From Synechococcus sp. CC9605 (GTDB lineage Bacteria > Cyanobacteriota > Cyanobacteriia > PCC-6307 > Cyanobiaceae), in the NCBI RefSeq assembly GCF_000012625.1, contig NC_007516.1, forward strand, positions 2,232,001 to 2,296,000: DNA of 64,000 bases. The letters run 5' to 3'. How positions within the stretch are numbered: the first letter of the stretch is position 1; the number at the start of each line of letters is the position of its first letter. The translations under genes were made by a program, and so were the position numbers. Of the stretch, positions 41,382 to 42,773 are shown piece by piece. Under the pieces are notes generated by a model. The model was not told the DNA's origin and did not search any database. It saw only the letters and a program-made list of their open reading frames with translations.

Positions 41382-42110
41382 ATGAGCCGAACCTACCTGC
41401 GGGCTGCCGGCCTGACTGCCGTAGGGCTTCTGGCCGCAGGCTTGTCGCAGGAGGCCGCAGCACGGGCCTTGTTTGACAGTGCTGCAATGCCAGAGAAGCA
41501 CTTTGCTGTGCTGGCCCAACCGATAGGCAGGGCCCAGTGGAAACTGCTGGTGCTGGAACAGATCAAGGTCCAACCGCGCTGCTGGAGGGCACGGCAGGAC
41601 GGACTGGTGGAGCCCAGCCTGAATCGCTTCAACTTCAGCGGCATCTGCAAGCGCTACCTGGACAGCAATGGCTACTCGCTGCGCAGCGGGGGCCAAGACC
41701 TTGGAACCCGCTTCCGCTTCCGGCTCAAGCGATCCGGCACATCGCTGAAGCTTGAGGCGCTGGACCCCCAGCAACGGGCACCACTGCTGGTGGGTCAGGC
41801 TGCCGCACCAGCTCGCCGCGATCCCAACGGGTTCGTGGCCTTGAGGCTGGAACCGGGCTGGGCTTTGGAACGTCGGGTTTACCAGGGACGCCCGTTGAAC
41901 CACCTGTATTTCGCCCACCAGGAACCGGTGAACCGGCTGCTAGCCATCGCAAGCAGCCGCGGCCATCGCTCACGCTTAAGCCGACTGGGAGCCCCGATGG
42001 CGCCGATCACTCCACCGCTGTTGCCCGCTGCACCAGCATCACGCCGACGAACCACACGCCTCGCCAGCACTGCTCCGATCCGGCTGCAGGTGATTCCTTA
42101 CCGCCGCTGA
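41382..42110 (+). CDS. DUF3747-like secreted protein
   Basis: A 242-residue protein with a signal peptide (about 1-28, LTAVGLLAAGLSQEAAA) and a domain of about 150 residues resembling cyanobacterial DUF3747 (ALFDSAAMPEKHFAVLAQPIG, WKLLVLEQIK, NRFNFSGICKRYLDSNGYSLR). Two Cys residues, in RCW and ICKRY, may pair. The C-terminal ~50 residues are basic, Arg- and Pro-rich. Probably exported; function unknown. Confidence 0.7.
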   Translation: MSRTYLRAAGLTAVGLLAAGLSQEAAARALFDSAAMPEKHFAVLAQPIGRAQWKLLVLEQIKVQPRCWRARQDGLVEPSLNRFNFSGICKRYLDSNGYSLRSGGQDLGTRFRFRLKRSGTSLKLEALDPQQRAPLLVGQAAAPARRDPNGFVALRLEPGWALERRVYQGRPLNHLYFAHQEPVNRLLAIASSRGHRSRLSRLGAPMAPITPPLLPAAPASRRRTTRLASTAPIRLQVIPYRR

Positions 42111-42169
42111 GGACAAACCGTCACAGTGCCAGTTGGGAGAGCGCACAGACAGGGGCTGATAATGGAATC

Positions 42170-42290
42170 TCCGCCCTTAATTTGATCTTGTGTGAGGAGT
42201 GCTGAACGCTACTTCAGGGTCGAAACAAGGACAGACTCCTGAACGTGTTCCTCTCGACAAAAGCTCCGCCTTTGGCGGGGCTTTTTTGTT
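42170..42290 (+). ncRNA. Yfr2-family-like small RNA
   Basis: No protein frame fits this gap. A stem TTCAGG-GTC / GAC-T-CCTGAA closes the loop GAAACAAGGACA, as I remember for the Yfr2 (Cyano-2) ncRNA family of picocyanobacteria. Upstream in the same transcript, 42190-42200 reads GTGTGAGGAGT, the exact complement of the ultraconserved ACTCCTCACAC core of Yfr1. A GATAAT box near 42158 could be the -10 element, giving a start near 42170, and a strong terminator closes the 3' end. The 5' end and the family name are inferences. Confidence 0.65.
42262..42288 (+). terminator. Intrinsic terminator of the small RNA
   Basis: AGCTCCGCC (42262-42270) pairs with GGCGGGGCT (42274-42282) around a TTT loop and is followed by TTTTTT. 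A textbook rho-independent terminator in the plus direction. Confidence 0.9.
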
Positions 42291-42299
42291 GCTCAGACA

Positions 42300-42376
42300 A
42301 AAACACAAAAAAAAACCAGCTCTCAACAGAACCGGCATCTGAAAGAGAACAGGGGGAGAGGGACAAGCCCTCTCCC
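42300..42376 (-). terminator. Terminator region of the rplJ-rplL transcript
   Basis: Just after the rplL stop on the minus strand, GGGAGAGGG (42354-42362) pairs with CCCTCTCCC (42368-42376) around ACAAG. The T-run in the minus direction lies further on at about 42300-42316, so termination may need the second, weaker stem or act as mRNA 3' end protection. Confidence 0.6.
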
Positions 42377-42383
42377 AAGGCGA

Positions 42384-42773
42384 TCACTTGAGGGTGACCT
42401 TGCCGCCTGCTTCTTCGATGGCCTTCTTGGCAGCCTCGGCGTCTTCCTTGGAGACACCTTCCTTGAAGGCCTTGGGAGCAGCCTCGACCAGAGCCTTGGC
42501 GTCGCCCAGACCCAGGCCAGTGGCCTCGCGGACAGCTTTGAGGACTTTGATCTTGGCGGAGGCCTCGAAGCCTTCGAGGATCACATCGAATTCGGTCTTC
42601 TCTTCAGCGGCCTCGCCACCGCCACCAGCAGCGCCAGGGGCAGCCATCACAACACCAGCAGATGCTGCGGCGGACACACCGAAGGCCTCTTCGATCTGCT
42701 TAACCAGCTCGGAAGCTTCAAGCAGGGAGAGGGATTTCAGCGATTCGAGAATTTCGTCGGTTTTTGCAGACAT
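42384..42773 (-). CDS. rplL: 50S ribosomal protein L7/L12
   Basis: 129-residue stalk protein that recruits translation factors. It has the N-terminal dimer helix region ([29 protein letters not shown]), an Ala-rich hinge and the C-terminal [42 protein letters not shown]-like domain ending GGKVTLK. Codon use is highly biased. It follows rplJ by 54 nt. Confidence 0.98.

Follow-up and report, generated by a model that had tools for sequence, protein, structure and literature searches.

An rplL-linked Yfr2 small RNA gene in Synechococcus sp. CC9605 carries a conserved, exact complement of the Yfr1 core

The 64-kb stretch of Synechococcus sp. CC9605 DNA analysed here (the window) contains, tail to tail with the ribosomal protein gene rplL, a gene of the Yfr2 small RNA family that bears a perfect 12-nt complement of Yfr1, an RNA encoded in the same genome. 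The reading that we favour, with a probability of about 0.8, is that the 12-nt 5′ stretch of this Yfr2 pairs with Yfr1 and would keep Yfr1 and a Yfr10-like RNA off their mRNA targets, Yfr1 in turn shielding Yfr2 from RNase E.

Results

The rplL-linked locus encodes a Yfr2 RNA

An initial annotation proposed a Yfr2-like RNA at 42150-42290 from a stem-loop and a terminator, and suggested a covariance search. The Rfam covariance model RF01701 (Cyano-1, which is Yfr2) matches 42186-42254 of the plus strand with 55.6 bits (E = 5.6e-07), the gathering score being 41, so that the family is accepted above its cut-off, and this is the sole gathering-level Rfam match within the window. Matches to GcvB, asX2 and b55 were weak, far under the respective cut-offs, and these identities were rejected. 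The locus has the 12-nt central loop containing GAAACAAGG on a bulged stem, by which the family is recognized, and also its conserved 5′ motif, GUGUGAGGAG; the loop and the terminator read by the initial annotation were both recovered, the latter as a strong site (Table 1). In the consensus of 29 sequences some pairs of the outer stem of the hairpin change on both sides, and the inner stem is nearly invariant.

The extent of the RNA was judged from its flanking signals. In an alignment of 29 relatives a TAnTTT box is conserved, ending 6 nt 5′ of the motif (commonest base in its six columns 89, 96, 37, 62, 89 and 100 percent), and its position at this locus implies an RNA start near 42189-42190, most likely at the motif itself; a scan with the sigma-70 consensus returned no promoter-like site. 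Members of the Yfr2 family are expected to give abundant transcripts of about 90-100 nt. The RNA probably occupies about 42190-42287, with the pairing motif as its 5′ end, and the originally proposed span is to be divided accordingly, its first part (42150-42189) being promoter. The motif is unpaired in the consensus fold of the 29 relatives, and partly paired when folded with four extra upstream bases (unpaired probability 0.09-0.58 over 42190-42199). The convergent flank of the gene is rplL-rplJ, whose strand also scores a 5-pair site (42266-42278) in the Yfr2 terminator hairpin.

Table 1. Features of the yfr2 locus (positions in the window)
Feature	Position	Strand	Basis
DUF3747 protein gene, upstream of yfr2	41382-42110	+	PF12565
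Operator-like palindrome AACCGTCACAGTGCCAGTT, 19 nt, centre 65 nt upstream of predicted start	42116-42134		pattern search
-10 box TAATTT, 6 nt upstream of motif	42178-42183	+	column conservation, 29 relatives
Predicted Yfr2 (Cyano-1) small RNA, ~98 nt	42190-42287	+	RF01701 match, -10 box (5′ end), terminator (3′ end)
Anti-Yfr1 motif GTGTGAGGAGT(G), 12-nt complement of own-genome Yfr1	42190-42201	+	sequence match; genus conservation
Central hairpin, 12-nt loop GAAACAAGGACA at 42222-42233	42204-42250	+	fold; consensus of 29 sequences
Intrinsic terminator of Yfr2, last bases six T	42259-42287	+	terminator scan
Terminator-like hairpin on rplL strand, distinct from Yfr2 terminator	42315-42336	-	terminator scan
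Second hairpin on rplL strand	42354-42376	-	terminator scan
rplL (ribosomal protein L7/L12), convergent neighbour of yfr2	42384-42773	-	PF00542, PF16320

The partner RNAs are encoded in the same genome

The 11-nt complement of Yfr1 claimed for 42190-42200 is present exactly there, as GTGTGAGGAGT, and occurs nowhere else in the window; its mean count in 100 shuffles was 0.00. A genome search for Yfr1, which the initial annotation had also called for, returned one Yfr1 in the 2.51-Mb, single-contig genome, at C1:1765916 (RF01116, 67.5 bits), carrying ACUCCUCACAC and thus an exact partner core. The core, ACTCCTCACAC, together with the preceding C matches 12 nt of the rplL-linked Yfr2; the claimed exactness therefore stands, and the length rises from 11 to 12 nt (GTGTGAGGAGTG with CACTCCTCACAC).

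Genome-wide, the 11-mer has three sites: Yfr1, a Yfr10-like RNA that is followed by a terminator of its own and, as the reverse complement, the rplL-linked Yfr2. A backward control pattern has one site. Across 34 genomes of the genus, however, the counts were 85 and 58, so the bare 11-mer hardly exceeds chance genome-wide and its count by itself proves little. What does go beyond chance, judging from the comparisons below, is that the 11-mer lies where a Yfr2 gene has its predicted 5′ end and that it is conserved at this place. A further 24 sites in the genus belong neither to a called Yfr1 nor to an rplL-linked Yfr2, and 12 of the 21 that were read are Yfr10-like. The Yfr10-like RNA is itself conserved, with GTCGACTCCTCACACC followed by a terminator and a similar upstream region at G000:C1:1023262 and in 11 homologous stretches. 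Two genomes have a second, sub-cut-off match to the Yfr1 model on the opposite strand adjoining Yfr1, each with its own ACTCCTCACAC (G020:C1:671575-671644 and G024:C1:688547-688592).

CC9605 has four Yfr2 matches at E <= 0.001, three of them over the cut-off. The three paralogues of the rplL-linked copy, at 55.1, 46.1 and 38.2 bits (the last under the cut-off), retain complements of 8, 7 and 9 nt, respectively. Co-folding with Yfr1 gave -15.3 kcal/mol for the rplL-linked copy versus -13.2, -11.8 and -9.8 kcal/mol for the paralogues, a modest gain; with the stretch around the Yfr10-like motif it reached -9.8 kcal/mol, and two paralogues did better (-13.3 and -12.3 kcal/mol). With its perfect complement, the rplL-linked copy is the strongest candidate for the Yfr1 antagonist, and we infer that this copy, and not the three paralogues, would be the main one.

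Within the genus the full complement belongs to rplL-linked copies

RF01701 matches numbered 88 and occurred in all 34 genus genomes; 87 were placed relative to their neighbours, the match on G017:C25 being left out. Yfr1 was found in 33 of the 34, the exception (G015) being 79 percent complete, and its core was exact in 30 of the 30 loci read. Twenty-nine of the 87 placed Yfr2 copies lie tail to tail with rplL, 78-156 nt from it. The whole 11-nt complement is present in 28 of these 29 and in none of the 58 other copies (Fisher p = 5.8e-22, a value to be read in the light of the fact that relatives are not independent samples); the exceptional rplL-linked copy retains 10 nt and adjoins N's. 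Each of the 19 genomes that are at least 90 percent complete has one rplL-linked copy, and all five genomes that have none are incomplete (57-89 percent).

Across the alignment of 29 relatives one of the 11 motif columns varies, in a single row, and the other 10 are invariant, whereas at the six positions that separate the motif from the -10 box the commonest base reaches 34-62 percent. It should be emphasized, however, that the loop and inner stem are conserved about as well as the 5′ motif, so that within the Yfr2 RNA the motif does not stand out by its conservation. The duplex predicted between the 5′ end and the Yfr1 core has a mean energy of -23.6 kcal/mol (-29.6 to -20.6) for rplL-linked copies versus -14.1 kcal/mol (-25.8 to -6.0) for the others, with overlapping ranges. 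The shorter GUGAGGA is retained in 52 of the 58 copies that lack the full complement.

The rplL linkage and the pairing extend to other genera

For a wider search of the family the loop GTCGAAACAAGGNNAGAC was used as the pattern and the 5′ motif was excluded, a design that misses rplL-linked copies with other loops. Of the 300 family genomes sampled, 96 had a match to the pattern, and 64 of the 86 matches read outside the genus face rplL, across 24 genera. The location beside a ribosomal protein gene, flagged as notable in the initial annotation, is thus a real feature of the locus, the same placement being found in 25 genera. Pairing with Yfr1 is possible at 11 positions in 51 of these 64 copies, at ten in 10 and at nine in 3, and the motif is identical in 28. 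All 11 nt are present in 1 of the 22 matches outside the genus that have no rplL link. The commonest departure, A9G, replaces an A-U pair with Yfr1 by G.U; it occurs in 26 rplL-linked rows, and is the sole change in 23 copies from 16 genera.

Yfr1 itself was sought outside the genus in 30 chosen family genomes by covariance search and found in 24. The core is unchanged in 23 of these, 19 of which carry an A9G Yfr2; the remaining genome (G081) has one weak Yfr1 match without the core. Yfr1 was read for 17 of the 23 copies in which A9G is the only change, and there too the core is unchanged. No compensatory change in Yfr1 was found for the A9G copies in the 19 such genomes read, so the case for preserved pairing depends on a change to G.U on one side of the duplex. 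In six of the 30 genomes Yfr1 was not found; one of them (G045) is ~90 percent complete and has an rplL-linked copy that would pair at 11 positions.

A scan of named genomes with the full motif and loop yielded 45 stretches. Those of Synechococcus RCC307 and WH7803 have the rplL linkage, and in those of Synechocystis, Leptolyngbya and Spirulina rplL is absent from the stretch examined; a goat-rumen Bacteroidales record looks like a chance match. Virus-borne Yfr2 decoys were not detected at the sensitivity of two patterns applied to viral contigs: a loose one gave at least 120 stretches, with 8 of the 80 read passing a looser loop filter and none Yfr2-like by eye, and a tighter one gave 11 matches, none with GTGAGG upstream. 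For MIT 9313, PMC1242208 tabulates one yfr2; a genome whose Yfr1 coordinates equal those tabulated for that strain (G102) also carries a copy linked to rplL, at 2204978, whose 5′ stretch is CGTGAGGGGT.

An operator-like palindrome is concentrated at yfr2 promoters

The palindrome upstream of the predicted promoter (Table 1) is the single site in the CC9605 genome at two or fewer mismatches, and the other three Yfr2 copies lack it; when three mismatches are allowed it no longer stands out in this genome, giving 4 rows where the control gives 11. It is present at two or fewer mismatches in 25 of the 29 rplL-linked genus copies, at a constant distance of 76-77 nt before the GTGAGG core. A consensus derived from the rplL-linked yfr2 promoters, AACTGKCACWGTGMCAGTT, was then searched genome-wide in the 34 genomes at the same stringency and found 56 sites in 29 of them, against 5 for the backward control. 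No fewer than 51 of the 56 begin 31-71 nt before an RF01701 match (19 at 31-35, 2 at 45 and 30 at 69-71), and the existence of two main spacings relative to the start of the model (31-35 and 69-71 nt upstream of it) suggests two modes of control. The remainder comprise one site beside a Yfr2-like hairpin not called by the model and four elsewhere. The former, on G019:C29, has a hairpin and a terminator behind the palindrome on the reverse strand, is uncalled by RF01701 at E 0.001 and is probably a diverged Yfr2. At G012:C1:1228217 a mismatch-free palindrome has no evident Yfr2 adjoining it, and may mark either another regulated gene or a lost Yfr2 copy. The classes could not be told apart by counting half-site operators (13 of 29 rplL-linked versus 29 of 58 other copies).

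Discussion

The Yfr2 family and its type of partner were already known; what this study adds is the rplL-linked class, the preserved pairing and a palindrome common to many yfr2 promoters. The CC9605 gene shares with Yfr2-5 of Prochlorococcus MED4 and Yfr2a-c of Synechocystis PCC 6803 the covariance match, the GAAACAAGG loop, the 5′ motif, a terminator and the presence of several copies (PMC2662882). The Yfr1-Yfr2 interaction that the initial annotation mentioned as a proposal for Prochlorococcus goes further in print. In PMC6778093, Yfr2 of MED4 used as bait recovered Yfr1 and Yfr10, and vice versa; in an E. coli reporter, Yfr2 relieved the repression exerted by Yfr1; and Yfr2 was shielded from RNase E by Yfr1 or Yfr10. 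PMC6974561 reports binding of Yfr1 to Yfr2 in Nostoc (PCC 7120) by EMSA. These experiments, with the proposal of 2008 (PMC2518516), make it most likely that the CC9605 Yfr2 sequesters Yfr1 and the Yfr10-like RNA. The 12 nt at the 5′ end of Yfr2 would pair with the single-stranded core of Yfr1, and the same end would pair with 11 nt of the Yfr10-like RNA; both partners would then be kept away from their mRNA targets, and Yfr1 binding may in turn shield Yfr2 from RNase E. We infer both the transcription of the rplL-linked gene and its antagonist action by analogy with these systems, with which CC9605 shares the motif pair in one genome and the presence of Yfr1 and a Yfr10-like RNA; the antagonism is experimental in MED4 and would be analogous in CC9605, whose other three copies keep 7-9 nt. 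The pairing proposed for MED4 in PMC2518516 needs a bulge and a mismatch, in contrast with the perfect 12 nt of the rplL-linked copy. The MED4 Yfr2 and its three homologues were, according to PMC6778093, largely recovered with Yfr1 or Yfr10 despite imperfect pairing, which indicates that a perfect match is not needed.

It could be argued that the RNA is indeed a Yfr2, but that its 5′ motif owes its retention chiefly to other functions, for example pairing with mRNAs or with antisense RNAs or service as an RNase E site, Yfr1 being one target among many. The 404 enriched Yfr2 peaks and the cleavage of Yfr2 by RNase E reported in PMC6778093 would fit such uses, as would the retention of GUGAGGA in most copies without the full complement. 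Other uses, however, do not readily explain why the extra 4 nt of complement are retained in nearly every rplL-linked genus copy, or why the commonest cross-genus change, A9G, preserves the pair with Yfr1, and we regard this explanation as rather unlikely.

That the complement persists at the rplL-linked locus through orthology alone, without selection on pairing, seems more improbable still. The rplL-linked genus copies do share much of their hairpin sequence, with a loop about as conserved as the motif; against this, the adjacent spacer varies in the very genomes in which the motif is almost invariant, and the majority of copies in the 24 further genera still pair at 11 positions. The suggestion that the stretch is no RNA gene at all, but the 3′ region or terminator of its neighbours, draws on its intergenic position and on the weak score of the terminator hairpin on the rplL strand; it is hard to credit in view of the family score, the conserved -10 box and the terminator that the gene has of its own, and of the further hairpins on the rplL strand. 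The balance thus favours a Yfr2 RNA that pairs with Yfr1.

According to PMC1242208 and PMC6778093, yfr2 loci are unfixed or unconserved; the placement of the CC9605 copy beside rplL, in contrast, recurs across genera. No paper treating Yfr2 together with rplL was found in the literature searched, outside which lies the paper on the family by Gierga and colleagues (2009). PMC6778093 describes a motif of MED4, CGRE1, which occurs only at yfr2 promoters and is bound by the GntR regulator PMM1637 (PlmA), and review literature links PlmA to Yfr2. The palindrome, which lies mostly at yfr2 promoters, is possibly the counterpart of CGRE1. We tentatively suggest, as a division of labour that is conceivable though short of likely, that the copy beside rplL is ancient, has been passed on vertically and acts as a dedicated Yfr1/Yfr10 antagonist under a yfr2-specific operator, and that the other paralogues in picocyanobacteria, freed from strong pairing with Yfr1 (mostly 7-9 nt), serve other targets.

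The rplL linkage provides one Yfr2 locus, recognizable by synteny, at which the Yfr1-Yfr2 circuit can be tested across picocyanobacteria, and the comparison predicts that Yfr2 paralogues differ in their affinity for Yfr1. The candidate operator, nearly private to yfr2 genes, would tie this circuit to one regulator.
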